This document shows, piece by piece, positions 2,271 through 27,592 of a DNA stretch of 27,592 bases. Below the pieces are notes generated by a model. The model searched no databases and was not told where the DNA came from. It saw only the letters and a program-made list of their open reading frames with translations. Made by a program: the position numbers and the translations under genes. Origin of the DNA: a virus; IMG/VR virus record IMGVR_UViG_3300042197_003465, positions 1 through 27,592 of that record; one strand, written 5' to 3'. Each line of letters starts with the position of its first letter. The first letter of the stretch is position 1.

Positions 2271-4154
2271 ATGAGCAAAAAAGAAGTAATTATCGGAATT
2301 GATCTTGGTACAACTAATTCGGCTGTATCTATTGTAGAAAATGGAGAGCCAGTAGTAATAACTAATTCAGAAGGAAAAAGAACTACACCTTCTGTTGTTG
2401 CATTCACAGACAAAGATCGTAAAATTGGAGATCCAGCAAAAAGACAAGCTGTGACTAACCCAAACAAAACAATTTATTCAATCAAACGATTTATTGGAAA
2501 AGATTTTTCAGTTTGTTCTGATGAAATTAAAAGAGTTCCATATAAAGTAGTTAATGGAACGAGTAATGTTCCATCGGTTGAAATTGATGATCGAAAATAT
2601 ACACCACAAGAAATCTCAGCTATGATTCTTCAAAAAATGAAAAAGACCGCTGAAGAATACTTAGGATATGATGTGAAAAAAGCAGTTATTACTGTACCTG
2701 CATATTTTGGAGATGCAGAAAGAACAGCAACTATTGAGGCTGGAAAAATTGCAGGATTGGAAGTAGAAAGGATTATTAATGAACCAACTGCTGCAGCACT
2801 TGCTTATGGTCTTGATAAAAAAGGAAAAGATCAAAAAATCTTAGTATTTGACTGTGGCGGAGGAACGCATGACGTATCAGTTTTAGAAATTGGTGACGGT
2901 GTATTTGAAGTAAAATCCACTGATGGTGATGTTCATTTAGGCGGTGATGATTTTGATAACGCTATAATTAACTGGATGGTTCAAGAATTCAAATCAGAAA
3001 ATTCTATGGATTTATCAAAAGACCCTATGTCACTTCAAAGATTGAAAGAAGCTGCTGAAAAGGCTAAAATTGAATTAAGTTCTACAACAGAATCTGAAAT
3101 TAATCTTCCTTATATCACAGCTAAAGATGGTATTCCACTTCACTTTGTAAAAAAATTAACAAGAGCGAAATTTGACCAATTAACCTCAGAATTAGTTGAT
3201 AGAGCAATCAAATGTGCTAAGACTGCACTTAAAAATGCAAAAATAAAAGCATCTGATATAGACGAAATTATCTTAGTAGGTGGTTCAACTCGTATTCCAA
3301 GTATTCAAGAAGCGATTGAAAAGGAATTCAATAAAAAACCAAACAAATCGGTAAATCCTGATGAAGTTGTGGCCATTGGTGCAGCAATTCAAGGAGCAGT
3401 GTTATCAGGTACAATAACAGACGTTCTATTATTGGATGTGACTCCTTTATCCTTAGGCATTGAAACTATGGGTGGTGTATTCACTAAATTAATTGAGGCA
3501 AACACTACAATACCTACAAGAAAATCAGAACAGTTCTCAACTGCTGCAGATAATCAATCTTCTGTTGAAATTCATGTTTTACAGGGTGAAAGACCTATGG
3601 CTAAGGACAATCGTTCACTTGGTAGATTTCATTTAGATGGAATTATGTCAGCTCCTCGTGGCGTTCCAAAAATTGAATGTACGATTGATATTGATGCTAA
3701 TGGCGTACTTTCTGTAAGTGCAAAAGATCAAGCTACTGGTAAGGAAAACAAGATTCGTATTGAAGGTGGATCTCAACTTTCTAAAGAAGAAATTGAAAGA
3801 ATGAAAATGGAAGCTGAGGCTAATGCTGAATCAGATCGTCTTCAAAAAGAAAAAGTTGATAAACTTAATATGGCAGATAACATGATTTTTCAAACTGAAA
3901 AACAAATCAAAGAGTTTGATGAAAAATTGACTGATGAAAATAAATCAGAATTAAAAGAAGTTTTAGAAAATCTTAAACAAGCTCACAAAGATCAAAATAT
4001 AGAACAAATTGATGAAGTGATACTTAAGTTAAATGAATCATGGTCTAAAATTTCAACTAACCTTTATCAAGACGCTCAAAATACGACTCAAGAAACACAA
4101 ACTGGACAGGACTCTCAAGAACCTGTAGATGTTAGTTTTGAAGAAGTGAAGTAA
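2271..4154 (+). CDS. dnaK: Hsp70 chaperone DnaK (phage-encoded)
   Basis: A full-length 627-residue DnaK. ATPase domain: phosphate 1 loop GIDLGTTNS (9-17), K72 in IKRFIG (catalytic lysine), [13 protein letters not shown] (142-154), [11 protein letters not shown] (170-180), phosphate 2 motif D194-CGGGT199-HD201, HLGGDDFDN (222-230), adenosine motif LVGGSTRIP. The interdomain linker [17 protein letters not shown] and the substrate-binding beta domain follow, then a helical lid and the conserved EEVK C-terminus. The catalytic K, T and D are present. Unusual residues are C195 and H200, where most DnaKs have FDLGGGTFD, and GDAERTAT in place of NDSQRQAT. Overall wording resembles Bacteroidetes DnaK, suggesting capture from the host phylum (inference). 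GrpE and DnaJ are encoded 2.3-5 kb downstream. The gene ends in a strong terminator. Confidence 0.97.
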
Positions 4155-6407: not shown

Positions 6408-6899
6408 ATGAAAAAAACAAAAAAACAGGTTACTTTAGAACATCAAGAAAATTCTAATCAAAATGTAGAAACTTTAGTACAAGAAAAATCCGAAGAAGTC
6501 ATTTTATCAGAGCAACTTCAAGAATCAAAAGATAAGTATCTACGATTATATGCTGAATTTGAAAATTATAAAAGAAGAGTTCAAAAAGAAAAAGAAGATT
6601 TGATTTTGAATACAAAAACTTCTATGTTGAATTCCATTCTAGATCTTGATAATGACTTATACATTGCAAAAAAATCAATCGGTGATTCTGAGGGATTAAC
6701 AATAATTTTGAGTAAAGTTCATAATTTTTTGAAGTCTAAAGGAATTGATGAAATACAAACACTGACATATGATGAAGACTTGCACGAAGTGATTTCAGTT
6801 TTAGAAACAGGTGAGACTAAAATTATAGACGTAGTTTCAAAAGGATACTCCATAAACGGAAAACCTTTTAGATTTCCAAAAATTGTTTTATCAAAATAA
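6408..6899 (+). CDS. grpE: GrpE nucleotide-exchange factor
   Basis: A 163-residue GrpE, the dimeric factor that releases ADP from DnaK. A charged, disordered N-terminus (1-35) leads into the long paired helix KDKYLRLYAEFENYKRRVQKE (41-61), which carries the family hallmark AEFENYKRR. A region with LDLDNDL (78-84) follows, then the beta-wing domain with the hallmark H-E-V (126-128), in place of the usual HEA, and GYSINGKPFRFPKIVLSK (146-163). The length is slightly below most bacterial GrpE proteins. It is next to a gene of unknown function on each side and shares the run with dnaJ. Together with dnaK at 2271 it completes a phage Hsp70 system. Confidence 0.92.
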   Translation: MKKTKKQVTLEHQENSNQNVETLVQEKSEEVILSEQLQESKDKYLRLYAEFENYKRRVQKEKEDLILNTKTSMLNSILDLDNDLYIAKKSIGDSEGLTIILSKVHNFLKSKGIDEIQTLTYDEDLHEVISVLETGETKIIDVVSKGYSINGKPFRFPKIVLSK

Positions 6900-7464: not shown

Positions 7465-8517
7465 ATGGCAAAAGACTATTACAAAATACTTGAAGTTGAC
7501 AGAGCGGCTACTCAAGAAGAAATAAAAAAGGCTTACAGAAAACAAGCTATGCGATATCATCCTGATAAAAATGGAGGAGATCAACAATCAGAGGAAAAAT
7601 TCAAAGAATGCGCCGAAGCATTTGATATACTTTCTGATCCTCAGAAAAAACAACAGTATGATACTTATGGTGAAGTAGGTGATAGAGGAAATCCATTTTC
7701 TGGTGGATTTGGTGGATTTGGTATGGACGATATATTCTCAAGATTTGGAGATATATTTGGATTCGGAGGTGGAAGCTCTCAAAGGCAAACACGCCGTGGT
7801 AATGATCTTCGTATGACATTAAAAATATCTTTGAATGATATAATTAATGGTATTTCTAAAACTATAAAATATAATAGAAACATTAAGTGTAAACCTTGTG
7901 ATGGTCAAGGTGGAACAGACTTCACAAATTGTGGTTCTTGTAGCGGAACTGGACAAAGAAGAATAGTACAACAAACACCTTTTGGTAATATTCAACAAGT
8001 TATGCCATGTAACTATTGTGAAGGTAGAGGAAAAGTTCAAAGAAATACTTGTAATACTTGTAGAGGACAAGGAACTATTCCAAATGAAGAAAGTTTGGAT
8101 CTAAATGTTCCAAAAGGTGCAATAGGTGGAATTTCTTTCGCAATGCAAGAAAAGGGAAATTGGATCAAATCTGGTAGCCCTGGTGATTTAGTAATAATAA
8201 TTGATGAAGAACCCAATGTTCAGTTTAAAAGAGATGGTATAAATCTTACATTTGATAATAATATAACCGTTATAGAAGCAATACTGGGTAAAGAACAAAC
8301 TTTAGACACACCACATGGTAAAATAAAGTTCAATATACAACCTGGTACTCAACATGGAAATATAATTAGAATTCAAGGCAAGGGTATTCCAGATATTCAA
8401 CGTAACGGATTTATGGGTGACTTATTGATAAAAATTGCAATTAAGATTCCTTCTTTAATTTCTAATGAAGAAAAAATGATTCTTGAAGATCTAAAAAATT
8501 CAGAAAATTTTAATTAG
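7465..8517 (+). CDS. dnaJ: Hsp40 co-chaperone DnaJ
   Basis: A 350-residue class A J-protein. J domain 1-70 with the essential HPD at 32-34. A Gly/Phe region (75-105) includes DIFSRFGDIFGFGGG. The zinc-binding domain has four CxxCxGxG repeats: C142/C145, C156/C159, C182/C185, C196/C199. C-terminal substrate-binding domains follow (LDLNVPKGAIGG, PGDLVIII, DTPHGKIKFNIQPGTQHG, GDLLIKI). It is somewhat shorter than the usual 370-380 residues, with a trimmed C-terminus. It stimulates DnaK ATPase and delivers substrates. It is last in the run starting at 5921. Its TAG overlaps the stop codon of the convergent glycosyltransferase gene by three bases, and its terminator lies inside that gene. Confidence 0.95.
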   Translation: MAKDYYKILEVDRAATQEEIKKAYRKQAMRYHPDKNGGDQQSEEKFKECAEAFDILSDPQKKQQYDTYGEVGDRGNPFSGGFGGFGMDDIFSRFGDIFGFGGGSSQRQTRRGNDLRMTLKISLNDIINGISKTIKYNRNIKCKPCDGQGGTDFTNCGSCSGTGQRRIVQQTPFGNIQQVMPCNYCEGRGKVQRNTCNTCRGQGTIPNEESLDLNVPKGAIGGISFAMQEKGNWIKSGSPGDLVIIIDEEPNVQFKRDGINLTFDNNITVIEAILGKEQTLDTPHGKIKFNIQPGTQHGNIIRIQGKGIPDIQRNGFMGDLLIKIAIKIPSLISNEEKMILEDLKNSENFN

Positions 8518-9655: not shown

Positions 9656-11470
9656 TTAATTTTTTAGTATGAATATCCACTTTTTCGAGCCACAGTCAAA
9701 AATTCTATAAATATTCCTCTCATGCATTATCTCTACTTCAGTCTTATCTGGTGAAAATCCTAATTTTACAAGATTACTTTTTCTAAAATTAAATCTATGT
9801 TTCTTTATGCCATCAATTACCCAGTAATAATTTATTTCAGTTTCGGATTGTAAACTAAAACCTAATTTTTGATACATTTCGCCTATTCCTCTTGAATTAT
9901 CGGAAAAACTTATTACTTCTTGTGGTGAATAATTTTCTAAAAAGTATTTAAACATTTTACTTGAACCACCAACTACTATAGTATTTAATTTATTACAAAA
10001 TCTTAACAATTCCCAACTTCCAACTTTTGAATTATATCCAACAGATTTCCTTAGACTACCAAAGGTCATCAAACTTACAAGATTATTGTTATAGAATAAT
10101 CCGATTTTTATTTTAGATGGAACAACACCTTGTATATGATTATTTTCTAAAAAGTCATTTACTAATTTATTATCAGTTATTTCCCTTATTTGACATTTTC
10201 TAGCCCAGATTTTTTCTGATCTTTTTAGCTTGTTCAGAATCATAGATTGTACTATTGATCTTTTAAAATCCCAATCATCTTCCCAAATGTGAATCAGTTG
10301 TATTTCTTTTTTTAAACATTCTTTTGTTTTATTCTGATGATACCACTTATCTTTATACAATTCAGAGTGCCAATACAGGCAGTTAAATTCAAATGCCAAT
10401 TTTAAATCTGGTAGGTAGATATCAAGCTCACCATTTATAACAGATTGTGTATTAGTTACGATTTCGCCGTGGTAATTATCTGAAATAAATTTTAAAATTT
10501 CAAGTTCTCGTCTTGACTTACCAGATAAACTTGGATTACAAATCAAACAGATTTCTTGTTTTGACTGCTTTCTAAAAACAAATAATTGTCTGTTAATTGA
10601 AAAAACATTATTACATGTGGTACAGGAAAACTCTAAAATAGAATCTGTATTATTTTCATTAGATTTTTTATCTAAATAAATCAAATTATCCGGTAATTCT
10701 GTTTTTATTTTTTGAATAATATTTGATTTATAAGACTGAACTCTTTTCTGAATAACTTCTGGACTTTTGAAATGATGTTCTACACCCCAATTATCAAAAC
10801 TAACTTTCTTTATAGCTTCTAATCTATACTGAATAAAGTTTTCATATGTGCCAAAGTTTTCAGATATTGTATTAATCCTTTTCTTATTAATTTCATCTTT
10901 TTCATCTTTAGATTTATTTAATAATGTTTGTCTTCTTGATTGAATAATAGTCAATTTTTCCGCATTATTTTCCCAAGTTATTTTACTTTTTTCTTTTAGT
11001 TCATCGGATTGTTGTGACCACTCAACACCCCATTTATTAATCATCGTTTTCTTGAATTTATCTTGTACCACTTTTGATTTCATATAATGGTCACCCCATT
11101 TATTTTTGATATTTTCTTTTTCTTTTTCAATGATCTGTGATGACTTTTTTGGATTATCTACTCCGAACTTCTCAACACAAGTTTCTTTTCTTTTTTTAAC
11201 ATAACAATCTTTTTCACCACAAGTAGTTCTATATCCATTTTTAAAACCTATAAATTTTTTGTGATTTCCACAATCACATAGCTGCAGAGTGGACAGTTCA
11301 TTTACCCAATAATAAATCTTTTCAGATATTTGAAAATCTTTTATTTCTTTTGGAATGCCATTATTAATAAGTTCTAAGTACTGAATATTATTCGAGTTTT
11401 TTAAAAAAATACACAATGATCCTATATTTCTGTTAGCCATTTCTATTATTAACTCCTTCATAGATTTCAC
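9656..11470 (-). CDS. Hef/MobE-like homing endonuclease with Vsr-like nuclease domain
   Basis: A 604-residue, modular free-standing homing endonuclease. A first zinc site is formed by C65, C67, C84 and C89. Repeats of the EKFGVDNPKKSSQI or NKWGVEWSQQS type run from about 98 to 250, as in other phage homing enzymes. A second Cys4 knuckle is at C283/C286 and C308/C311. The nuclease core follows: GELDIYLPDLKLAFEFN (347-363, with E348, D350, E361), YWHSE (H368), and IQLIHIWEDDW (H394, E397), the Vsr/EDxHD-like pattern. The C-terminal 175 residues (about 425-604) form a GNAT-like module (GSWELLRFCNKLNTIVVGGSSK) often attached to such enzymes. The start has an upstream TATATATATAA stretch. It sits beside two GIY-YIG endonucleases. 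Confidence 0.82.
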   Translation of the reverse strand: MKSMKELIIEMANRNIGSLCIFLKNSNNIQYLELINNGIPKEIKDFQISEKIYYWVNELSTLQLCDCGNHKKFIGFKNGYRTTCGEKDCYVKKRKETCVEKFGVDNPKKSSQIIEKEKENIKNKWGDHYMKSKVVQDKFKKTMINKWGVEWSQQSDELKEKSKITWENNAEKLTIIQSRRQTLLNKSKDEKDEINKKRINTISENFGTYENFIQYRLEAIKKVSFDNWGVEHHFKSPEVIQKRVQSYKSNIIQKIKTELPDNLIYLDKKSNENNTDSILEFSCTTCNNVFSINRQLFVFRKQSKQEICLICNPSLSGKSRRELEILKFISDNYHGEIVTNTQSVINGELDIYLPDLKLAFEFNCLYWHSELYKDKWYHQNKTKECLKKEIQLIHIWEDDWDFKRSIVQSMILNKLKRSEKIWARKCQIREITDNKLVNDFLENNHIQGVVPSKIKIGLFYNNNLVSLMTFGSLRKSVGYNSKVGSWELLRFCNKLNTIVVGGSSKMFKYFLENYSPQEVISFSDNSRGIGEMYQKLGFSLQSETEINYYWVIDGIKKHRFNFRKSNLVKLGFSPDKTEVEIMHERNIYRIFDCGSKKWIFILKN

Positions 11471-11536: not shown

Positions 11537-12649
11537 ATGGAAAAGTATTATGTTTATTGTTTTTTAGATCCGAGAAAACCAGGTCAATATGTTTGGGAAG
11601 ATTTGCATTTTGAATTTGAACCATTCTATATAGGCAAAGGTAGTGGTTCAAGATTGAGGGCACATTTTTATCCTTCAAATCTAAAGATAAAGAATACTAA
11701 AAACAATAAAATAAAAAGTATCATATCCAAAAATAAATATCCAATTATTAGAATAATAGAAGAAAATCTTAATGAGCAACAAGCATATGATATAGAAGAA
11801 TCATTAGTGGTCAAAATTGGAAGATCAAATATTAAATCAGGTCCACTTTGTAATTTAACAGATGGTGGTAAAGGTGCTATAAATCTTAAAATACCAAAAA
11901 AAAGAAAACCTACTTATCAGTTTTCTTTAGATGGTGTTTTATTAAAGAGATACGAGTCTCTTTCAGAAGCCGCTCAGATTAACAATCTTCACCTTTCAGA
12001 CATTTCTAAATGTTGTAGGAATCAAGCAAAAACACATGGTGGGTTCTATTGGTCATTCAAAGATACAAATAATATTTTTACAAGAAATAAAAAAAATAGA
12101 AAGATACTACATTATGATTACGATGGTAATCAAATAAATGAGTATGAGAGTATAACACATGCTGCTAATTCAAACGGAATAAAATTTTCTACAGTTAGTC
12201 GAATTTGCAAAGGTGAAATTTTACAATACAGGGGAACATATTTTAGATATTATGATCAAGATTTTGAATTACGCGGAAAAAAAATTAGATATAGAGAAGT
12301 GTTGAAAATAACAAATGAAGGTATAGTAGAATTCAAATCTGTTAAAGAAGCAAGTATAAAACTAAATATTTCTACGAAGTCTGTCATTTCAAGATGTAAA
12401 AATAAGAACTTATTTGATGATTTATACCTTATTTATAAAGATGATTATTCAAATGGAATAAGAAAAGATTTTCAAAAAAAAGGAAACGGCGAAAAAAGAA
12501 TAAAAAGAATCTCTATTGATAATTCTGATATAGTTGAGTACGAATCAATTCTAAAAGCATGTGCAGAGGAAAAAATATCAAGATCATATCTCTCGAGATT
12601 GTTAAAAAACAAAAAATTATACAAGAATAATTTGTTCACCTATTGTTGA
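11537..12649 (+). CDS. GIY-YIG homing endonuclease with NUMOD1-like repeats
   Basis: A 370-residue protein. The GIY-YIG nuclease occupies about 1-110: YVY (5-7), YIGKG (31-35), the catalytic arginine R39 in SGSRLRAH, a glutamate at 88/89 in YDIEESLV, and CNLTDGGKG (105-113). The spacing between the two halves is longer than usual because of an insert PRKPGQYVWEDLHFEFE. Four NUMOD1-like DNA-binding repeats follow, each with a Q/D-x-D-G-x-x-x-x-Y-E-S-x-x-x-A-A-x-x-N core (about 126-175, 190-240, 255-300, 325-370). It does not interrupt a visible gene; it lies between the Vsr-like endonuclease (divergent) and a virion-type gene. Confidence 0.87.
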   Translation: MEKYYVYCFLDPRKPGQYVWEDLHFEFEPFYIGKGSGSRLRAHFYPSNLKIKNTKNNKIKSIISKNKYPIIRIIEENLNEQQAYDIEESLVVKIGRSNIKSGPLCNLTDGGKGAINLKIPKKRKPTYQFSLDGVLLKRYESLSEAAQINNLHLSDISKCCRNQAKTHGGFYWSFKDTNNIFTRNKKNRKILHYDYDGNQINEYESITHAANSNGIKFSTVSRICKGEILQYRGTYFRYYDQDFELRGKKIRYREVLKITNEGIVEFKSVKEASIKLNISTKSVISRCKNKNLFDDLYLIYKDDYSNGIRKDFQKKGNGEKRIKRISIDNSDIVEYESILKACAEEKISRSYLSRLLKNKKLYKNNLFTYC

Positions 12650-13473: not shown

Positions 13474-13539
13474 ATGGGCACTTTTAATATGTTACTAGGT
13501 GGAGTTAAGTTTTTTATATATAGAATATGGATACAATAA
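13474..13539 (+). pseudogene. Possible start of a gene cut off by the GIY-YIG insertion
   Basis: ATG at 13474, six bases after the stop of the virion-type gene, opens a 21-codon frame, MGTFNMLLGGVKFF and so on, that runs into the next endonuclease gene and stops. The first dozen codons look like ordinary coding sequence, unlike the A/T leader that follows. It may be the 5' end of the next structural gene, stranded when the endonuclease gene inserted. This is weak evidence from a short peptide. Confidence 0.2.
13514..13522 (+). promoter_or_regulatory. TTATATATA box before the second GIY-YIG gene
   Basis: TTATATATA-GAAT-ATGG, the same layout as before the GIY-YIG gene at 11537. Confidence 0.4.
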
Positions 13540-14417
13540 AATATACTATTTATAAACTAATAGACCCAACAGACAACAGAATCAGATACATAGGACTCAC
13601 TTTTAATGACTTAAAGACAAGATTAAAGTCACATATTTCAGAGCCTGGGAGTTCTCACAAAATTAATTGGATTAAAAAAATTAAAAAAATTGGATTAAAA
13701 CCAATAATTGAATCAGTTGAAGAAGATATTTCTACATACGAGACTGCTTGTGAAAGAGAAATACACTTCATAGATTATTTTAAATCGTTAGGTTGTGATT
13801 TGACAAACATGGCATCTGGTGGTAATAAGAACAGAAAAATGTCAGATGAAACCAGAAAAAAAATGTCTGAAGGTCAAAAAGAAAGATATAAACATTTCAA
13901 ATTAATACATTCAGAAGATACAAAGAAGAAAATAAGTAATTCAACTAAAGAGAGATTTCAAGACTCAAATGAAAGAAAAAAGCTAAGAATTTCTAACAAG
14001 AAATACGAAGACTCCAAGAGCTCAGAACAAAAGTTGAAAGATATTTTGATACAAGATTCCAAAAAAATTTATCAATATGATCATTTGATGAATTTGATAA
14101 GAATTTATCCCTCTATTCGAGATGTTGAGAGAAAAATTAATTTGAAAAGATCTAATATATCCAAATGTTGTAAACATATCGTCACATTTGTTGGTGGGTA
14201 TGTTTGGAGATTTGAAGGTGATTTAACTCCACCAAAATATAAGAATAGAAAAGAAGTGATACAATATGATATGAATCTTAATATTGTATCAGAATTTGAA
14301 AACATCAGAAAAGCAAGTTTAGAGACAAAAGTTAATGATGCACGAATCAGATGTTGTTGTAAAGGTAAATACAAAACAGCAGGTGGATTTATTTGGAAAT
14401 ATAAAGATAATATATAA
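13527..14417 (+). CDS. GIY-YIG homing endonuclease with NUMOD3 and NUMOD1 modules
   Basis: A 296-residue protein. The GIY-YIG nuclease occupies about 1-98: YTIYKL (6-11), RYIGLT (20-25), R32 in TRLKSHI, glutamates E76/E78 in ACEREIHFIDYF, and NMASGGN. Two NUMOD3-type basic helices follow, MSDETRKKMSEGQKERY (105-121) and HSEDTKKKISNSTKERF (128-144), then two NUMOD1-like repeats (about 172-225 and 237-296), each ending GG-Y/F-V/I-W-R/K. It is not a copy of the 11537 enzyme: the nuclease lacks the long insert and only this one has NUMOD3. It ends three bases before the next start codon; that gene's upstream AT box overlaps the end of this coding sequence. Confidence 0.88.
   Translation: MDTIKYTIYKLIDPTDNRIRYIGLTFNDLKTRLKSHISEPGSSHKINWIKKIKKIGLKPIIESVEEDISTYETACEREIHFIDYFKSLGCDLTNMASGGNKNRKMSDETRKKMSEGQKERYKHFKLIHSEDTKKKISNSTKERFQDSNERKKLRISNKKYEDSKSSEQKLKDILIQDSKKIYQYDHLMNLIRIYPSIRDVERKINLKRSNISKCCKHIVTFVGGYVWRFEGDLTPPKYKNRKEVIQYDMNLNIVSEFENIRKASLETKVNDARIRCCCKGKYKTAGGFIWKYKDNI
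14408..14416 (+). promoter_or_regulatory. TAATATATA box before the 14421 gene
   Basis: The 13 bases AAGATAATATATA (14404-14416) recur exactly at 16038-16050. In both places the box contains the stop region of the preceding gene (D-N-I-stop) and lies 4-6 bases before the next start. Confidence 0.4.
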
Positions 14418-15814: not shown

Positions 15815-16051
15815 ATGAAATACTTAAAAAAATTTGAAGCAGTGAGTGGCAAATCTATGAATAAAGTTTATGACTTGACACGTGGTCGTGGGAAAACTCC
15901 AGAGATTGAATCAGATCTAGAGCAAATGAAGGCAATTTTAAGTGATATTGAAGATTTTAGTGATGTTAAATTTTATATTACAACCTATTTTCCAAGACAT
16001 ATTGATATAATGATAAACAAAGATAATTGGTATCAAGAAGATAATATATAG
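15815..16051 (+). CDS. Small unknown protein with the same N-terminal tag
   Basis: A 78-residue protein starting MKYLKKFEAVSGKS. After the tag there is a basic stretch (TRGRGKTPEIES), one helix (DLEQMKAILSDIEDF) and a strand pair (VKFYITTYFPRHIDIMINK). That is half of an alpha-beta unit like those in the preceding 462-residue protein. It may be a free-standing single-domain member of the family or a shortened one. It starts five bases after the 14421 gene and ends five bases before the 16057 gene; ATG is preceded by the A-rich TAAAAGAT. Confidence 0.65.
   Translation: MKYLKKFEAVSGKSMNKVYDLTRGRGKTPEIESDLEQMKAILSDIEDFSDVKFYITTYFPRHIDIMINKDNWYQEDNI
16042..16050 (+). promoter_or_regulatory. TAATATATA box before the 16057 gene
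   Basis: Part of the exact 13-base repeat AAGATAATATATA also found at 14404-14416; six bases separate it from the ATG. Confidence 0.4.
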
Positions 16052-16056
16052 TTATA

Positions 16057-16764
16057 ATGAAACATCTACGACCATTTAATTTACTTAATGAAAATCATCA
16101 ATCTACAAAAGAAGTTGATTTAATTGTAGGAGTTATGCAAGATTTTTTAGATGATGATAGAAAGATATTATTTCGTTCATCAAATGGCGATATGAATTAT
16201 ACTGATTATGTTGATAAGAATAATAATTATTTGAATTTCAAACCTGTTATAAATAATGGAAAATATATTAGATCACAATTTAGTATAGTTTTTCAAGATA
16301 TTAAAGATTATAAAGATTTTTTATCAATGTTAAATGAAATGCAAGCAGCCATTGGTAGATTAAAAGATAGTGATTGGTCACTATATGATATGAAATTAGG
16401 AACATCAGCACCGCTTTCAAATCAGGGAAATGTTAATTTTTCTTTTTTAGCATTATATTTTTCTAAACCTGATCAAGAAATACAAGGTGGATCATTTGTG
16501 TATCCAACTAAAGAACAATTGGCAGAAGTTTTCAAAAGATGGGGGTTAGTTATTCAGGATTTAGATTGGATGGAAAGCAAAAGACCTAATGAACAAGAAA
16601 GTGAGTTGTGTGTAGAATTTTATACACAAGGCTATCGTGGAGAAGTTCCTAAAAATATTGAAGATTGTTTTGACCTAACTTGTGATAAGTTTGGATTCAA
16701 TTCTTATAACTATGACTTTGGTGAATTGAGAGTTTGGTTTATTTTTAACTTTAATTCCTTTTAA
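16057..16764 (+). CDS. Unknown tagged protein, 3' end fused to foreign DNA
   Basis: A 235-residue protein starting MKHLRPFNLLNEN, a variant of the cassette tag with L-N-E at the possible cut site. The body is alpha-beta with repeats of aromatic/acidic strands; DFLSMLNEMQAAIGRLKDSDWSLYDMKLG (about 88-116) resembles the helix-strand unit of the 14421 protein. No motif of known function is seen. The last residues, FIFNFNSF, are encoded antisense to the M23 peptidase fragment at 16741-16890, so the natural C-terminus was probably lost at a recombination junction near 16740 and replaced by chance sequence. Whether the protein is still functional is unclear. Confidence 0.65.
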   Translation: MKHLRPFNLLNENHQSTKEVDLIVGVMQDFLDDDRKILFRSSNGDMNYTDYVDKNNNYLNFKPVINNGKYIRSQFSIVFQDIKDYKDFLSMLNEMQAAIGRLKDSDWSLYDMKLGTSAPLSNQGNVNFSFLALYFSKPDQEIQGGSFVYPTKEQLAEVFKRWGLVIQDLDWMESKRPNEQESELCVEFYTQGYRGEVPKNIEDCFDLTCDKFGFNSYNYDFGELRVWFIFNFNSF

Positions 16765-16890
16765 AACAGGGTGATCATGTTCTCCAAAGCTACTGCTGAT
16801 AATGCCTTCGGCAACCGGCCAAGGTAGTTTAGATTTATTGGCTGCAAAACTGTTAGATAATTTTTGTGCCTCAGGAGTTTTTATGATGCT
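16741..16890 (-). pseudogene. Fragment of a Bacteroidetes-type M23 (EnvC-like) murein peptidase gene
   Basis: Read on the minus strand, this piece encodes about 50 residues: LSIIKTPEAQKLS, then SFAANKSKLPWPVAEG, IISSSFGEH, DHPVLKGIKVKN. This matches from memory the conserved entry into the M23 domain of Bacteroidetes EnvC-like proteins (TPEA-x-x-LS-x-x-F-x-x-NKG-x-LPWPV-x-x-G-x-I-x-x-x-FG-x-x-x-HPVL-x-GI-x-V-x-N). It stops exactly where the domain should continue with N-x-G-I-D-I, and it has no start and no catalytic residues beyond the first part. The stretch is visibly richer in G/C (GCCTTCGGCAACCGGCC on the plus strand) than its surroundings. It is a stranded piece of bacterial gene, overlapping the 3' end of the plus-strand gene and abutting the minus-strand gene that ends at 16890. 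Confidence 0.78.
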
Positions 16891-17207
16891 TAGTAAAAAG
16901 TATATTTACCATTATCATCGTGTATAACACAATACATTGAAATAGGATAAATCTTTGGAAATTCCCCGATATCTTCAATAATAAATCTACAAGAACCATC
17001 AATAATTTGAGAATTGGTTACTTTAACAGTGGCATTGTTTAAACCTTTAACAACTGTGTAAAAAATATCATCAAGTTCTGGTGTTACCTCAATGAAATTG
17101 TTTTTTGTAAGTAATTTACCTAAATAACCTTCTTCAAAATAAGATTTTCTAATAATATTATCTAATACTTCCACATTTGGGAACTCAAGTTTGATTTCGC
17201 TTTTCAT
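16890..17207 (-). CDS. Small unknown protein
   Basis: A 105-residue soluble protein, MKSEIKLEFPNVEVLDNI and so on, with a mixed alpha-beta pattern and a C-terminus HDDNGKYTFY. I do not recognise it. The C-terminus lies directly on the edge of the M23 gene fragment, so the stop may have been created by the same recombination. It starts 5 bases downstream of the stop of the next minus-strand gene (17213-17563), and the two probably form one transcript driven from 17569-17600. Confidence 0.6.
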   Translation of the reverse strand: MKSEIKLEFPNVEVLDNIIRKSYFEEGYLGKLLTKNNFIEVTPELDDIFYTVVKGLNNATVKVTNSQIIDGSCRFIIEDIGEFPKIYPISMYCVIHDDNGKYTFY

Positions 17208-17212
17208 AAAAA

Positions 17213-17563
17213 TTATAATTCTAAAAGATGTGAAAGTTTTATTTCTCGTTCTTTTTGAACAGTGAGTGGTGTTTTTTCTAAATTTGATACTTCAAATTTA
17301 TAAATCTTGCATTTATTATCTTTAGAACATTCACGAATTAACTGTATTTCAAATTTACATTGCCAGTATTTATCTTTAGAAAAATAAATCACTTCTTTTA
17401 AATCAATATTCTTAATATCAAAGTCTGCGGGAAATTTTATTTTTATACTATGAAATGTAATATTTGACCAATGAGTATTTAGTTGATTTTTAGAAATCGG
17501 ACCACAATATTCAAAAGATTTAATTACATCAAAGAATGCAGTATTTGTAAATTTTATTTTCAT
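17213..17563 (-). CDS. Small unknown protein
   Basis: A 116-residue protein starting MKIKFTNTAFFDVIKSFEY. The frame is open to 17599, but the ATG at 17561-17563 is preferred: the extra residues (MYIFNFLFIFVN) would be encoded within the promoter and have no counterpart in style. The body is beta-rich with WQCKFEIQLIRECSKDNKCKIYKFEV (about 74-99), in which two cysteines flank a turn. No known motif. A good Bacteroidetes-type promoter ends a few bases before the ATG, so this is probably the first gene of a two-gene unit with 16890-17207. Confidence 0.65.
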   Translation of the reverse strand: MKIKFTNTAFFDVIKSFEYCGPISKNQLNTHWSNITFHSIKIKFPADFDIKNIDLKEVIYFSKDKYWQCKFEIQLIRECSKDNKCKIYKFEVSNLEKTPLTVQKEREIKLSHLLEL

Positions 17564-17568
17564 ATTGA

Positions 17569-17600
17569 CAAATATAAATAAAAAATTAAATATATACAAA
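17569..17600 (-). promoter_or_regulatory. Bacteroidetes-type promoter TTTG-N20-TATATTTG
   Basis: On the minus strand TTTG (17597-17600) and TATATTTG (17569-17576) are separated by 20 bases, matching the Bacteroidetes consensus TTTG-N19/21-TAnnTTTG. The start codon at 17563 lies five bases beyond the -7 box, so the message would be leaderless or nearly so. Confidence 0.5.
17573..17580 (+). promoter_or_regulatory. TATAAATA, T4 late-promoter-like box
   Basis: An exact match to the T4 late promoter element TATAAATA, 21 bases before the ATG of the 17602 gene, in the divergent leader. In DNA this AT-rich it could be chance. AAATATATA (17588-17596), five bases before the ATG, is another candidate. 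Confidence 0.3.
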
Positions 17601-17601
17601 T

Positions 17602-18138
17602 ATGAAAATTATAGGATGTAGAATAAATTTCGGAAGCAAAAGGGAACTTTTTGAACTTTTACCAGCTACCATAGTTAGGATTATTGAATCTAACACGGAT
17701 CAAAATTTTGACTTTAAAATTCAAGTCAATGTGAATGGTAGAAATACCTCGGTTATTAAGTCATTTGGACCGGATTTTATTGGCCAAACAGATTTCGAAG
17801 TGCTACGAGGACAAACACTACCAATATTAGGTAATAGAAGCACAATTCATAAATTCGCAAAATTTAATGATAATGGAACTATAGATATTTTAGATCAAAT
17901 TCAAAATGAAGGCGCACTTCCCAGAGAATCAACTGTTAAACAATTGCAGAAAATCAGACAAGCAACTAAATCAACTACAATAGATGATAGAATTCCTAAA
18001 TTAAAAGGTGCAAATTTATCACATGAAAGAAATGTTGTTGATTCTGGTATTGAATCTTATGAAGATTTCCAAAAGAAAAACAAATCTTTTATACCTGGTT
18101 GGAATCTTAAACATCTAACTTCGCCTTATAGGAAGTAA
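17602..18138 (+). CDS. Unknown protein
   Basis: A 178-residue protein. The first 100 residues are beta-rich (KIQVNVNGRNTSVIKSFGPDFIGQTDFEVLRGQTLPILGN), suggestive of a compact barrel. The rest is basic and helical, ending WNLKHLTSPYRK. It lacks the cassette tag, a signal peptide or any enzymatic motif. It is divergent from the small minus-strand genes. It is convergent with the membrane protein gene at 18139-18483, with the two stop codons directly abutting inside a near-palindrome (GGAAGTAATTATTTCC, 18132-18147). I do not recognise it. Confidence 0.7.
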   Translation: MKIIGCRINFGSKRELFELLPATIVRIIESNTDQNFDFKIQVNVNGRNTSVIKSFGPDFIGQTDFEVLRGQTLPILGNRSTIHKFAKFNDNGTIDILDQIQNEGALPRESTVKQLQKIRQATKSTTIDDRIPKLKGANLSHERNVVDSGIESYEDFQKKNKSFIPGWNLKHLTSPYRK

Positions 18139-18493: not shown

Positions 18494-18518
18494 GTTATTT
18501 TTAATAAATAGTTTATAT
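18494..18518 (-). promoter_or_regulatory. Repeated promoter-like element, copy 2
   Basis: Minus strand ATATAAACTATTT followed by ATTAAAAATAAC, one base longer than the copy at 5757-5784 and otherwise identical over the core. It lies between the GTG of the membrane protein gene and the divergent ATG at 18517. Confidence 0.5.
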
Positions 18519-19059
18519 GTTAAAAAGATACAAAGATTTTGTGAAGAATAGGAGTCAATATCAATTCGGATGTGTTTTAGTTGATTATAATTTTTCTAAT
18601 TGGCAACAATTTTTAGAAGAAATACTCAAAATACAAGATGATGATGTGTATGAAGTTGAAGGTCAAAATTACGGCATTGAGCCAAGGCCACACTTAACCT
18701 TATTATATGGACTTCACCAAGAAGTTTCAAACGAACAAGTGCAATCTTGTTTTACGGGATTCAATATTGATGATTTTAAAGTGCATATAAATGGCATTGA
18801 TATTTTTGAAAATGAGCAATATGATGTTATAAAATTAAATGTTGTTAAAACTCAAAAACTTGAGGAAATTCATCAAAGATTAACAAAACTTCCGAATTCT
18901 GATAAATATCCACAATATAATCCACATATAACTTGTGCTTATGTAAAAAGTGGATTAGGTAAAAAATATATACATGGTGATTATAAACACGAAATACAAA
19001 ACATTAATAAAATTGTTTATACAAGACCGAATAAATCAGAATATATTATAAATCTATGA
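18517..19059 (+). CDS. 2H phosphoesterase (LigT/2'-5' RNA ligase-like), tagged N-terminus
   Basis: A 180-residue protein with the two catalytic H-x-T motifs of the 2H superfamily in hydrophobic strands: H59-L-T61 in RPHLTLLYG and H137-I-T139 in NPHITCAYV, 78 residues apart, as expected. Members cut or ligate 2'-5' bonds, open 2',3'-cyclic phosphates, or (phage Acb1) destroy cyclic oligonucleotide alarm signals of CBASS. The first residues MLKRYKDFVKNRSQ resemble the tag of neighbouring genes, although the possible cut-site glutamate is missing. Its stop overlaps the next ATG (ATGA), so four genes to 21218 are probably translationally coupled. An RNA-repair partnership with RnlA or anti-defence activity are both possible; fold assignment is solid, substrate is not. 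Confidence 0.85.
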   Translation: MLKRYKDFVKNRSQYQFGCVLVDYNFSNWQQFLEEILKIQDDDVYEVEGQNYGIEPRPHLTLLYGLHQEVSNEQVQSCFTGFNIDDFKVHINGIDIFENEQYDVIKLNVVKTQKLEEIHQRLTKLPNSDKYPQYNPHITCAYVKSGLGKKYIHGDYKHEIQNINKIVYTRPNKSEYIINL

Positions 19060-19946
19060 AGGTAAAAAACTATTCTAAATTCCTTGAAAACCAATCACAA
19101 GAATTTTCTATTTACGATTTTTACAATTATTGTGGAGATGTAGCTTGGCATAATGTAAAACTTGATGAAGGTGAATTAAAATCTCATATAGAACATTTTA
19201 TTGGCACAGGCACATGGGATATAATTAATTCACACTTTACAAAAATATTTAATGTTTTACAATCGGTTAATATGGATTTCATAGACGCTAGAATGTATGA
19301 TATATTTGATGAATATTTAAATCACGACGTTAAATATGCAGTAAGATGTGTAGCTTATGGTGATTTTGATAGATGGGATGCAGAACCTGAACGCAGGTAT
19401 AATGGTATGATGTCAGTTAGAACGCCTGATAATCAATCTAAGCTTAGCAATATATCAAGTTTTATAAGAACATTGCTTTATCCGTGTCTTTTTTTAAGTG
19501 ATTTTAAATCTAAAAGTTTAAGTCTTCGTACTACACCAGATGAAATATATGTTAATTCAGATGAGTTTAGTATTAAGAATTTACCAAATACTAAATTACA
19601 AATTGAAGATAATTTTGAGAAAACTTGGTCATTTTCAAAATATTTGCAGTTTGCAAAGGATTTTTCACTTGAAAGATGTTTATCTGTTTCAAAATATTTG
19701 CAGTTTGCAAAGGATTTTTCACTTGAAAGATGTTTATCTGTATATAAGCCAGGTATTTTTATTAATATATCTTCAGATAAATATATGGGATCTAAAATGT
19801 CTTATAATAAAATTATAGGTGAATTTGAAGAACTTTTACCTGCTATTACGGGTGATTTAGATGTTGAAGTTATATGTATGGATAAAAAAAGACCACAAGA
19901 TATGGAAATTTATGATTTTGATGTAAAAATAATTTTGTCTATATGA
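19056..19946 (+). CDS. Unknown tagged protein with an internal tandem duplication
   Basis: A 296-residue protein starting MKVKNYSKFLENQSQ, with the cassette tag and F-L-E at the possible cut site. I do not recognise the body, which is alpha-beta with aromatic strands (YAVRCVAYGDFDRWDAEPERR). Eighteen residues, SKYLQFAKDFSLERCLSV, occur twice in direct succession near 193-230 because of an exact 54-bp DNA repeat (19633-19741). The duplication keeps the frame. ATG overlaps the previous stop, and its own TGA overlaps the next ATG. Confidence 0.72.
   Translation: MKVKNYSKFLENQSQEFSIYDFYNYCGDVAWHNVKLDEGELKSHIEHFIGTGTWDIINSHFTKIFNVLQSVNMDFIDARMYDIFDEYLNHDVKYAVRCVAYGDFDRWDAEPERRYNGMMSVRTPDNQSKLSNISSFIRTLLYPCLFLSDFKSKSLSLRTTPDEIYVNSDEFSIKNLPNTKLQIEDNFEKTWSFSKYLQFAKDFSLERCLSVSKYLQFAKDFSLERCLSVYKPGIFINISSDKYMGSKMSYNKIIGEFEELLPAITGDLDVEVICMDKKRPQDMEIYDFDVKIILSI
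19633..19741 (+). repeat. Exact 54-bp tandem duplication, two copies
   Basis: The 54-base unit at 19633-19686 is repeated base for base at 19687-19740, and position 19741 continues the match by one base. Absence of any substitution implies a very recent event or active maintenance (or an assembly artefact). It adds exactly 18 codons to the 19056 gene. Confidence 0.97.
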
Positions 19947-23756: not shown

Positions 23757-26381
23757 ATGAAAATATCAAAGTATATTAATATTGATGAGAATATTTTGAT
23801 TGAATACATTCATGATGATTCTAATCTTATAGGTGAGCCATATAATATACTTTACAACACTCAAACTGGTGTGAAAAGTTTTATTTCATCTGATGAACCA
23901 AGACCATCAACTTCTGGTTTAAAACAAACTAATAACGACCTGTACAATCAATTATATAGAGTCAATCTTGTTCAAAATAGATACTCATCAATTCCACTTT
24001 CTACTTTTCCGAATAAAATTAATACAGAGCTTACACCATTTCTACAAGTTCGAAATTTTGCCGCATCAATACCTATTAGATATGATATTATACGAGTGCA
24101 TATTCCAATTGATTATGTTTTTGAAGGAAAAAAGGGATTTTATATTCGTGTTTACACTTACAATTTTGATAACACAAAAGAAGTAGAATTATCAAACTTT
24201 GCCTTTGACATGTCTGATGTCGAGCAAAGTTTTCAGTTAGAATATTCCGCTCCTATTCTTTATTTGAATTCAAGACAGTGGGGTAAATATGTAAATATCC
24301 AAATACCTTCTGTAACTAAAGTCTCGGACCAGAGATTAAGAAATTTACCAAGAGCGAATTCAATTAACTTTAATCTTTCACCAGCAGGAGTTGGTCTTTC
24401 AAAAACATCACCTGTTTTTATAGATTTTCATTATATAGAAAGAATAAATCAAGTCAATCAATCAAATTTCTTTGATTTATCACCAAGAAAAACTGTAGTT
24501 GTTCCACAAACTCCTGAATTTGAAAAACTTGGTGTTAATATTGAAGAATCAACTCAAGGAGATTTCTTTTTGATTTATGGAACATATAATGGTAGTCTTG
24601 GTGATTTTGAAACTTTTATTGAAGATCAATATTTTGAAGGAAATAGATATTATCTAGAATTCAAAGTTGAGATTTTTGAAAGAAATGTACTTGTAAAAAC
24701 AACAACTTTTATAGTTAAAGAAGATTTTGGTGAAGAAATTGAGTATAGACCAATTCTTAAATATACAACTACTACTGCTGTTATTGATGTGACTATGAAA
24801 TTAATAAATTCAGTAGATGCGACTTTTATTGAAAGAAAAGCATCATTTGGTTTTTTACAAGGTGGTGGTGCTAAAATGGGATCTGAACCTAATCCAAGAT
24901 TGAATATTGCTAATGGATCAGGAGGTGCTGGTGATATAGCCAAATATGCTCGTTATCTTAGAAAAATTAATTTATTAAAGTCCAAGAAACAAGATGTATT
25001 TTATATAAAATCATCTCAATTAGCTGACACGGCTTCAACTGGAAATGCTAAAGGTGTTTTAAATTTCAGAAAAATTCCTTTCATACTTTTTTCATTTAAT
25101 TATTATTTGTTAGATGATGATACTAATTTCAGAGTTAATGGTATAAACTACTTAGCAAATAACAAATCACTATTGTATATAACACCATTTGATGATTTTA
25201 TCAAAGTTAAGATTATTAAAACTAATTATTTTGAAGAAATTTTCTTTAATTTAGAAACATTTTCAAACATAAAGTTAACTATTAGAAGTGATCAAAAAAC
25301 TATCAATTTTGATATCTATAAAGATTCTGCTGATAATGTTTATTCAGAAGGTAGATTGGTTTTTAAAATACCACAAGAAAAATTTGCTGATATAAAAATT
25401 ATTTACAATCAAGGATTCAACAATTTCTATATCAATGGTGTAGATACAAACGGTATAAAAAAAATAATTTATACATCATTTTTTATGCCTTGGGATGTTC
25501 CTGATAATTTGAACAAATTACTTCAAAACTACGATCTTGATCAAATTAATAGACGTACTATTTTACAAACAAGTCAAATACCAGCCGATCCAACGATTGA
25601 AGTCATAAATGCTATAGATTCAGGTGAGAATATAGACACAACTGTAAATACCGAACCAGTTAGTGTTGCTGATACAGTATCTCAACAAACAGATAGTTCA
25701 CAATTTAATCCGAGATGGAAAAGTCCATTACAAGCCTTAGAAGTTGCCTTTGGTAACAGAAATACATTCACTATGCCTCTTCGTAGAGATTTACTAATAG
25801 TGGTATCTGAAATACCAGAATTAGGAATAACACCAGAATCAAAATCTAAACAGTTTGAAACACTTGAAAAATCTGAAATTATGGCGACTTCAATGAAAAC
25901 TATAAATGATAGAAAGTTGGATTTAATAATAGGATACTTCAAAGGATTAAATCTTAATCCTATAACTTTTGTTGAATATTGGTTTTTGCGAGATGACCAA
26001 AATGTAAGTAAACAAAGTACACCGTCTCAGCGAGATTTATTATTCTATATTAATACTGGATTAAATCAAATGACATCAGATATGGGCATGGGTCTTCCTG
26101 AAAATGAAGTTCAGATCGGCGAGTTTGTGCCTAATTCTGAACAACTCAAATTTTTAAAATCTCAAGCAAATCCCAAAAATAAAGATATGAACATAAAGAA
26201 TTTAAACATGGATCAAGTCGTGTCACAATCAAAAATGGGTAAAAGTGTTGTGGCAAATGAAGATAAAAAAGAAATATTTTATTCACCTGATCAAATTCCA
26301 GCAAGTGGGTACGCTTTAAGAAATCCACAATTCAATATCACGGGAGCAGCTGGAAGAGGTGGTAATAGAAGAAAAACATAA
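23757..26381 (+). CDS. Large virion-type structural protein, paralogue A
   Basis: An 874-residue soluble protein, mostly beta strands of phage-structural style. The N-terminal 375 residues align with the next gene: YIRVYTYNFDNTKEVELSNFAFDM, GLSKTSPVFIDFHYIERI, IEESTQGDFFLIYGTYNGSL, EYRPILKYTTTTAVIDV. A glycine-rich hinge (about 370-395) follows, then a second beta-rich domain (440-605), a T/S/D/Q-rich linker, and a C-terminal helical region (TFVEYWFLRDDQNVSKQSTPSQRDLLFYINTG) with a glycine/arginine tail. No enzymatic motif. Position and paralogy suggest a tail, baseplate or neck component; the exact part cannot be read from sequence. The start has TTATATATA 17 bases upstream. Confidence 0.75.
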   Translation: MKISKYINIDENILIEYIHDDSNLIGEPYNILYNTQTGVKSFISSDEPRPSTSGLKQTNNDLYNQLYRVNLVQNRYSSIPLSTFPNKINTELTPFLQVRNFAASIPIRYDIIRVHIPIDYVFEGKKGFYIRVYTYNFDNTKEVELSNFAFDMSDVEQSFQLEYSAPILYLNSRQWGKYVNIQIPSVTKVSDQRLRNLPRANSINFNLSPAGVGLSKTSPVFIDFHYIERINQVNQSNFFDLSPRKTVVVPQTPEFEKLGVNIEESTQGDFFLIYGTYNGSLGDFETFIEDQYFEGNRYYLEFKVEIFERNVLVKTTTFIVKEDFGEEIEYRPILKYTTTTAVIDVTMKLINSVDATFIERKASFGFLQGGGAKMGSEPNPRLNIANGSGGAGDIAKYARYLRKINLLKSKKQDVFYIKSSQLADTASTGNAKGVLNFRKIPFILFSFNYYLLDDDTNFRVNGINYLANNKSLLYITPFDDFIKVKIIKTNYFEEIFFNLETFSNIKLTIRSDQKTINFDIYKDSADNVYSEGRLVFKIPQEKFADIKIIYNQGFNNFYINGVDTNGIKKIIYTSFFMPWDVPDNLNKLLQNYDLDQINRRTILQTSQIPADPTIEVINAIDSGENIDTTVNTEPVSVADTVSQQTDSSQFNPRWKSPLQALEVAFGNRNTFTMPLRRDLLIVVSEIPELGITPESKSKQFETLEKSEIMATSMKTINDRKLDLIIGYFKGLNLNPITFVEYWFLRDDQNVSKQSTPSQRDLLFYINTGLNQMTSDMGMGLPENEVQIGEFVPNSEQLKFLKSQANPKNKDMNIKNLNMDQVVSQSKMGKSVVANEDKKEIFYSPDQIPASGYALRNPQFNITGAAGRGGNRRKT

Positions 26382-26394: not shown

Positions 26395-27592
26395 ATGAAA
26401 TCAGAATTCAAGAGACTACATAGAAATGCTTTGATGCAGTTTGTTTATGACAGTAATAATACTATTATAGAGCCTTATAGAATCTTAAAAAATTCTAAAA
26501 GTATTTTAAATTCATATGTCGCAGCAGAATCAACTATTACAAATAATGGTGCTGATAATCAATTAGTGCTTATAGATGATTACACTAATAAATATGGTAA
26601 ATTAGAGACCTCTAAATATAATTTCATTTCAATTTCTGATTACTTACCAACACAACCATTAGTACATGACAAAGTTGAAATATACTTTCCAAGTAATTTT
26701 ACATTTGAAGAGTATCAAGGTATTTACTTGAGATTATACACTTATGATTATAGAAATACTAAGTTTTTTGATATAACTAATTTTTACTTTGATGTAAATG
26801 ATACCTCAAAGAAAATACTTTTTAAAGTATCACCAATTCTTTATCAAGATGTTGTTTGGAATCAACTAATTGAATTGAATGTACCATCAGTTTATTATTT
26901 AGCACTACAAAGAGATTCTGGTTATGCTACTTCTGGTTCGGTAAATTCTAATTTAACAGATGGTTTGGGTTTATCACAAACTTCGCCAATTTTTATAGAT
27001 TTTAGATTTATTACTAGGGTAATAACTATTGGTTCTACAAAGACTTATTTAACCACACAAAAAACAAATCTACAAGTACCACAAATACCTCAATTAGAGT
27101 TATTAGGACTTTATATTGAAGAATCTACCAATGGTGATTATTTTGAAATTTATGGAACTTATGATGGTCTTTTATCAAATTTCATAAATTTTTTAGAAGA
27201 TTCTAGAAATATTAATAAGTTTTATGTTGTTGAGTTTGATGTGACTTTTTTTGAAGAAAATAGACCAGGAAAAACACAAAATTATATAATTAAAGATGAT
27301 TTTGTAGAAATAATAGAATACAGACCAATTGTTAAATATTCAACCGAAATTGGAGTAATAGAAGTCGAAATGCGTCTATTAAATCTCGTTGATGGAACTT
27401 CTATTGTAAGAAAAGCAGCTTACGGATTGAAGCCTGATCAACTATCTAAATATTTGATAAACCTCAAAAAGATCAATGTTAGAGATATTTTTAAACCTAA
27501 AATTTATTCAAAAAATAGATTTATTAAATATAAACCTCAAGAAGAAGGTCGTATTCCTCAACAAATTGATGTTGATGTTCCAACACCAGAAT
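26395..27592 (+). CDS. Large virion-type structural protein, paralogue B (cut by window end)
   Basis: The frame is open from ATG 26395 to the last base, 399 codons, with no stop. It is collinear with residues 1-375 of the 23757 protein: N-terminal NTIIEPYRILKNS versus NLIGEPYNILYNT; IYLRLYTYDYRNTKFFDITNFYFDV; GLSQTSPIFIDFRFITRV; IEESTNGDYFEIYGTYDGLL; EYRPIVKYSTEIGVIEVEMRLLN. Identity is moderate, so the duplication is old. It diverges after about residue 365, where paralogue A has a glycine-rich hinge and B reads KPKIYSKNRFIKYKPQEEGR. The two probably occupy equivalent sites in a virion complex. Confidence 0.8.
   Translation, partial: MKSEFKRLHRNALMQFVYDSNNTIIEPYRILKNSKSILNSYVAAESTITNNGADNQLVLIDDYTNKYGKLETSKYNFISISDYLPTQPLVHDKVEIYFPSNFTFEEYQGIYLRLYTYDYRNTKFFDITNFYFDVNDTSKKILFKVSPILYQDVVWNQLIELNVPSVYYLALQRDSGYATSGSVNSNLTDGLGLSQTSPIFIDFRFITRVITIGSTKTYLTTQKTNLQVPQIPQLELLGLYIEESTNGDYFEIYGTYDGLLSNFINFLEDSRNINKFYVVEFDVTFFEENRPGKTQNYIIKDDFVEIIEYRPIVKYSTEIGVIEVEMRLLNLVDGTSIVRKAAYGLKPDQLSKYLINLKKINVRDIFKPKIYSKNRFIKYKPQEEGRIPQQIDVDVPTPE

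Follow-up and report, generated by a model that had tools for sequence, protein, structure and literature searches.

A 140-bp scrap of a Bacteroidota envC-like gene between two convergent genes of a Mahaphage-like phage, a probable case of host DNA capture

The stretch of DNA analyzed here, called the window in the following, is a viral record of 27.6 kb (27,592 nucleotides; IMGVR_UViG_3300042197_003465) and represents a fragment. Two phage genes converge within it, and between them lies a 140-bp segment of bacterial character, the insert (Table 1). Besides the homologue in L058, the plus-strand gene has weaker ones in G006, LR756502 and LR745206; its homologues end no more than a few codons away from residue 228, where sequence of the bacterial donor starts. 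The last codons and the stop codon of this gene therefore now lie in antisense donor sequence. The minus-strand gene on the other side has homologues of 35-70% identity in eleven related contigs (L049-L051, L053-L057, L060-L062). The initial annotation had proposed a recombination junction between plus- and minus-strand parts at this place, and this is supported by an insert with sharp ends between genes of opposite orientation.

Table 1. Features of the insertion site, of the corresponding site in a relative, and of the remaining window
Feature	Position	Strand	Remarks
Phage gene, function not assigned, MKxLKxF paralogue	16057-16764	+	residues 1-228 are 50% identical to L058
Left junction	16725-16745		phage ...GAGAGTTTGGT / donor TTATTTTTAACTTT; at last codons of the plus-strand gene
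Putatively captured envC-like M23 piece	16739-16878	-	internal; 140 bp; donor codons 293-338 plus 2 bases
Right junction	16872-16890		donor ...CTCAGGAGT / phage TTTTTATGATGC
Conserved phage gene, function not assigned	16890-17207	-	convergent with the plus-strand gene; untouched by the insert
IMPDH/GMP-reductase gene of a relative	L049:13151-14095	-	about 30% identity with the genes that other relatives have in the slot
DnaK-GrpE-DnaJ chaperone set (Pfam HSP70, GrpE, DnaJ)	2271-4154, 6408-6899, 7465-8517	+	conserved in relatives
Two DUF7487 proteins, possible endonuclease type	82-942, 9656-11470	-	near two NUMOD/GIY-YIG genes
NUMOD/GIY-YIG genes	11537-12649, 13527-14417		
2'-5' RNA ligase-superfamily protein	18517-19059	+	conserved in L049, L050, L061, L062
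Perfect 54-bp tandem duplication	19633-19741	+	within gene 19056-19946; adds 18 residues in frame (SKYLQFAKDFSLERCLSV twice)
Two adjacent genes, function not assigned	23757-26381, 26395-27591	+	both align to the same regions in LR756502 and LR745206

Read on the minus strand, the insert translates without a stop codon into TPEAQKLSNSFAANKSKLPWPVAEGIISSSFGEHDHPVLKGIKVKN, one open stretch that contains the motifs listed in the initial annotation in the order given there. The block had then been placed at 16741-16890, which is close to its true location but overshoots the right end by about 12 bp. A blastn alignment with the best-matching bacterial locus (L002:3001-3140) shows 139 of 140 identical positions, with E = 2e-67 among the 47 loci fetched and E = 4e-66 against the whole MAG. 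The sole difference, at position 16798, is silent (ATC in the phage, ATT in the donor), and all 46 encoded residues are identical to residues 293-338 of the donor protein. Identity of this degree at the DNA level rules out that the motifs arose by chance in a GC-rich stretch. The block is indeed richer in G and C than its surroundings, as had been noted: its GC content is 37.1% as compared with 29.8% and 25.4% in the flanking 500 bp, and only 3.1% of all 140-bp stretches in the window are equally rich. At both ends identity to the donor stops abruptly.

Searches of Pfam, NCBIfam and PHROGs returned no convincing match for the insert piece, the best NCBIfam match being at chance level (E = 0.14). 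The family libraries are blind to it because it ends where the Pfam M23 domain begins, at donor residue 338, in line with the earlier remark that the sequence breaks off at the entry to this domain. Taken as an EnvC-like protein, the insert lacks the complete C-terminal M23/LytM domain (PF01551), of which it reaches just the first residue, as well as a start codon and export signal, all donor residues before 293 being missing. Its minus-strand frame contains no open reading frame of at least 50 amino acids starting from ATG, GTG or TTG. A gene or domain belonging to the phage itself was considered and ruled out, given that Pfam, PHROGs, phage records and plasmids all failed to yield a match.

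Scanning bacterial and archaeal genomes with the insert yielded 47 loci, all but one of them labelled Bacteroidota, and in these the corresponding region sits in longer genes. As the initial annotation had anticipated, the best match is to an EnvC-like M23 gene of Bacteroidota: L002, with 100% identity over 46 residues, comes from the Bacteroidia MAG HJW.53 (JALRAS010000007.1), which carries an intact envC-like gene. Two further genomes of the same family (L003, L004) differ from the insert at 23 of 140 positions, i.e. they match it to 84%, and the remaining genomes of that family match to 73-76% or not at all. In a phylogenetic tree the insert piece clusters with HJW.53 within the Bacteroidota. 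The neighborhood of the gene in this MAG is ordinary chromosomal, with a TPR protein and lipoprotein-like, radical-SAM-like and acyltransferase-like proteins, named by inspection of their translations.

The donor protein was tested in a reading of 436 residues and matches PF01551 (M23) at residues 338-429 with E = 8.9e-18. It also matches the solved EnvC chains 8hd0 (E = 2.6e-11) and 6tpi (E = 1.2e-9) as well as 8i6o, an EnvC-like membrane-bound metallopeptidase, and resembles solved EnvC in combining a coiled-coil N-terminus with a LytM domain. The captured residues 293-338 form the approach to the M23 domain, not the domain itself. Active LytM/M23 enzymes bind zinc through the ligand motifs HxxxD and HxH, whereas degenerate activators of the EnvC type lack the usual metal ligands. 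At the expected places the donor reads, as judged by eye, NNGID and EMHFE. Since these seem to replace the canonical motifs, the donor is more likely to be an EnvC-type amidase activator than a peptidase. The designation as a piece of an EnvC-like M23 gene is thus upheld, but the term murein peptidase had been too strong, as the piece precedes the domain and the ligands seem to be missing from the donor. With EnvC/NlpD-type LytM (M23) proteins such as the murein hydrolase activator EnvC the donor shares the long coiled N-terminus and the C-terminal M23/LytM domain; the phage, in contrast, has only 46 internal residues with neither a start nor the core of the domain. Taken together, these data support the view that the insert is a scrap from an EnvC-like M23 gene of Bacteroidota that has become stranded in phage DNA.

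The direction of transfer appears to have been from bacterium to phage. This is supported by the longer bacterial genes into which the insert region fits and by its absence elsewhere: no match was found in phage records, in plasmid records or, by exact pattern, in IMG/VR. Bacterial DNA entering the phage had been claimed from the start, and the nearly complete match to a bacterial contig, together with the absence of the insert from related phages, agrees with this. The insert is not conserved there as part of any phage gene, and it was absent from the related phages that can be compared at the slot. An exact empty-site relative was not found, and protein and DNA patterns run against IMG/VR revealed no near-identical phage with or without the insert. 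The near identity to the donor indicates that capture was recent relative to phage divergence.

The junctions are informative about how the insert may have arrived. To the left of 16739 window and donor diverge at once, and on the right they diverge at 16879, which leaves 11-12 bp before the minus-strand gene reaches its stop. No long word is common to donor and window at either junction. The coding density of the window is 96%. Of points chosen at random, only 4.9% lie outside genes or no more than 15 nt from the 3' end of a gene, as both ends of the insert do.

The same slot is filled differently in the relatives. An IMPDH/GMP-reductase gene follows the homologue of the minus-strand gene in L049, L050, L051, L054, L061 and L062, in several of them directly. 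L053 carries a small gene and L060 other genes; in L055-L057 the slot holds a hairpin followed by a T-run, with a NUMOD/GIY-YIG-type gene beyond it in L056 and L057. The hairpin (AAAAACCAGTC..GACTGGTTTTTT) lies directly 3' of the homologue of gene 16890-17207 and would terminate transcription from both sides. At the convergent junction of the window there is no such terminator but the host scrap. With five relatives lacking the IMPDH/GMP-reductase gene at this position, the slot is variable. The window also lacks this gene. In a tree of the adaptor protein it groups with L049 and L058 (97/94) and then with L061; the contig of L058 ends exactly at the insert site, and L049 and L061, the closest relatives whose sequence covers the slot, both carry the gene. 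By parsimony this suggests that the lineage of the window lost the gene by deletion and bears the host scrap in its place. The version in L049 is so distant from the others (Table 1) that replacement, as well as loss, seems to occur at the slot.

The SSB of the window is 74-75% identical to those of LR756502 (642,428 bases) and LR745206 (634,780 bases), its head-tail adaptor is about 77% identical to the adaptors of these two Mahaphages, and its gene order is largely common to them and to 12 IMG/VR contigs of up to 597 kb. By SSB, adaptor and gene order its core genes are thus close to Mahaphage genomes of 634-735 kb, and the likeness to LR756502 and LR745206 includes the order of genes around the slot; unlike the window, both have an IMPDH/GMP-reductase gene there and no envC piece. 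Most knowledge of the huge phages in the Mahaphage clade stems from metagenomes, with hosts inferred at the level of phylum. LR756502 (642 kb) and LR745206 (634 kb) fall among these phages, and the study that described them predicted that its genomes larger than 634 kb replicate in Bacteroidetes (PMC7162821). The earlier statement that the fragment names the host phylum fits these predicted hosts (PMC7162821), but the phylum is something we infer rather than read from the fragment; neither a CRISPR spacer nor co-occurrence was found that would link phage and host independently. The near-identical donor scrap and the predicted hosts of the clade together point to a Bacteroidota host, and close kin of the donor, of the same species or genus, may well be the host of this phage. 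The scrap, 99.3% identical to its donor, would narrow the likely host to one family-level group of Bacteroidia, with HJW.53 as the nearest genome found, and would date the contact between phage and donor as recent.

Phages can pick up short pieces of host DNA by illegitimate recombination or by filler insertion during break repair. The insert resembles such acquisitions in being a short foreign piece with abrupt ends and little microhomology at a deletion-prone site. It differs from general host-DNA pick-up in that the donor gene is identifiable almost to the letter and in that the insert is far shorter than a gene. We consider it likely that a huge Mahaphage-like phage of Bacteroidota recently captured the insert, through non-homologous repair, as a dead fragment of its host's chromosome. 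The phage genome would have been broken during infection in the variable slot between the two convergent genes, and the IMPDH/GMP-reductase gene of the slot would have been lost or resected. The infected Bacteroidia cell would then have supplied a short stretch of its envC-like gene, which was either joined to the ends of the gap, with microhomology scarce or absent, or copied into it by template switching. Closure of a break with host DNA, or template switching, is suggested by the sharp ends, the foreign donor and the gene-swapping nature of the slot. Of the hallmarks of break repair with filler, abrupt ends and foreign origin are seen directly, and the flanking deletion is deduced from the relatives. 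Likewise, a single event of gene loss and insertion, and the mechanism of repair, are our reading of the comparison. As no gene is disturbed, the scrap could persist without function. The NUMOD/GIY-YIG and DUF7487 genes of the window are of homing-endonuclease type and could cause breaks, which we mention as a lead only.

Alternatively, the joint between bacterial and phage DNA might have been made while the library was prepared or amplified, or in the course of assembly, resulting in a contig of mixed origin. The insert is known from one metagenomic record only, its 140 bp are near the length of a short read, a co-assembled bacterium would be expected to yield just such a nearly perfect match, and the break of the L058 contig at the same place indicates a spot that is hard to assemble. 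The phage flanks nevertheless belong together, as genes from the two sides have homologues in L049 whose order is unchanged; both ends respect gene boundaries in a genome that is 96% coding, for which the chance is about 5%; and the junctions, sharing no long word with the donor, are not easily explained by a plain k-mer collision. We therefore regard an artefact as unlikely. Transfer of a larger host segment, by homologous recombination or on a mobile element, with subsequent erosion to 140 bp would be compatible with the variability of the slot and with the several homing-endonuclease-type genes in the window. However, with one silent change in 140 bp there would hardly have been time for erosion, near-identity to the donor genome is absent from the remainder of the window, and no plasmid matches, so that this route is very improbable.

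Elsewhere in the window no near-identity match to the donor genome was found, and significant similarity is confined to diverged dnaK/dnaJ (66-74%). Additional host scraps in the window, L049 and L061 were likewise considered and rejected, strong similarity to the donor family being limited to diverged conserved genes (dnaK, dnaJ and nrdB, 65-80%) and all other matches being short and weak.

The insert is likely inert. A function is improbable because there is no start codon, domain, RNA structure or terminator, nor a promoter above shuffle level. A structured RNA or terminator was ruled out by a fold at shuffle level, the lack of an Rfam match and the absence of a terminator-like site. The insert could in principle have been kept as an antisense RNA against the envC-like mRNA of the host, so that a septum or cell-wall factor would be reduced in the infected cell, because read-through from the plus-strand gene into the block would produce a perfect antisense transcript and no terminator-like site occurs in 16000-17700. 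Against this, the target would be codons 293-338, well within the coding sequence and distant from the ribosome site, promoter signals stay at shuffle level, the RNA folds no better than shuffled sequences (z -0.10 and 0.30), Rfam provides no match and the insert was not found in other phages. We hold such a functional capture to be extremely improbable.

Capture and repair, as favored here, would provide a concrete case of how variable slots change in huge phages: a gene is lost and the gap is closed with host DNA. We see in it a good single example of captured host DNA whose donor can be identified, and not a new system. In the literature on short host fragments in phages we found no relevant report. 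A broader proposition, namely that host scraps regularly serve as repair filler at hypervariable slots of these huge phages and could thus preserve past hosts almost to the letter, or that the present one is a retained antisense element, appears quite doubtful at present. If such scraps were common, they would offer a signal for host assignment that is independent of CRISPR spacers.

Several other features of the window deserve mention. The DUF7487 protein encoded at 9656-11470 has two homologues in L060. The two copies of the 54-bp tandem duplication are identical, which argues for a recent origin. The adjacent genes at the right end of the window are apparently a tandem gene duplication, since both match the same regions of the two Mahaphage genomes. 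Finally, the 2'-5' RNA ligase-superfamily protein shows a borderline match to the anti-CBASS protein Acb1 (PF23474), with a score at the cut-off.
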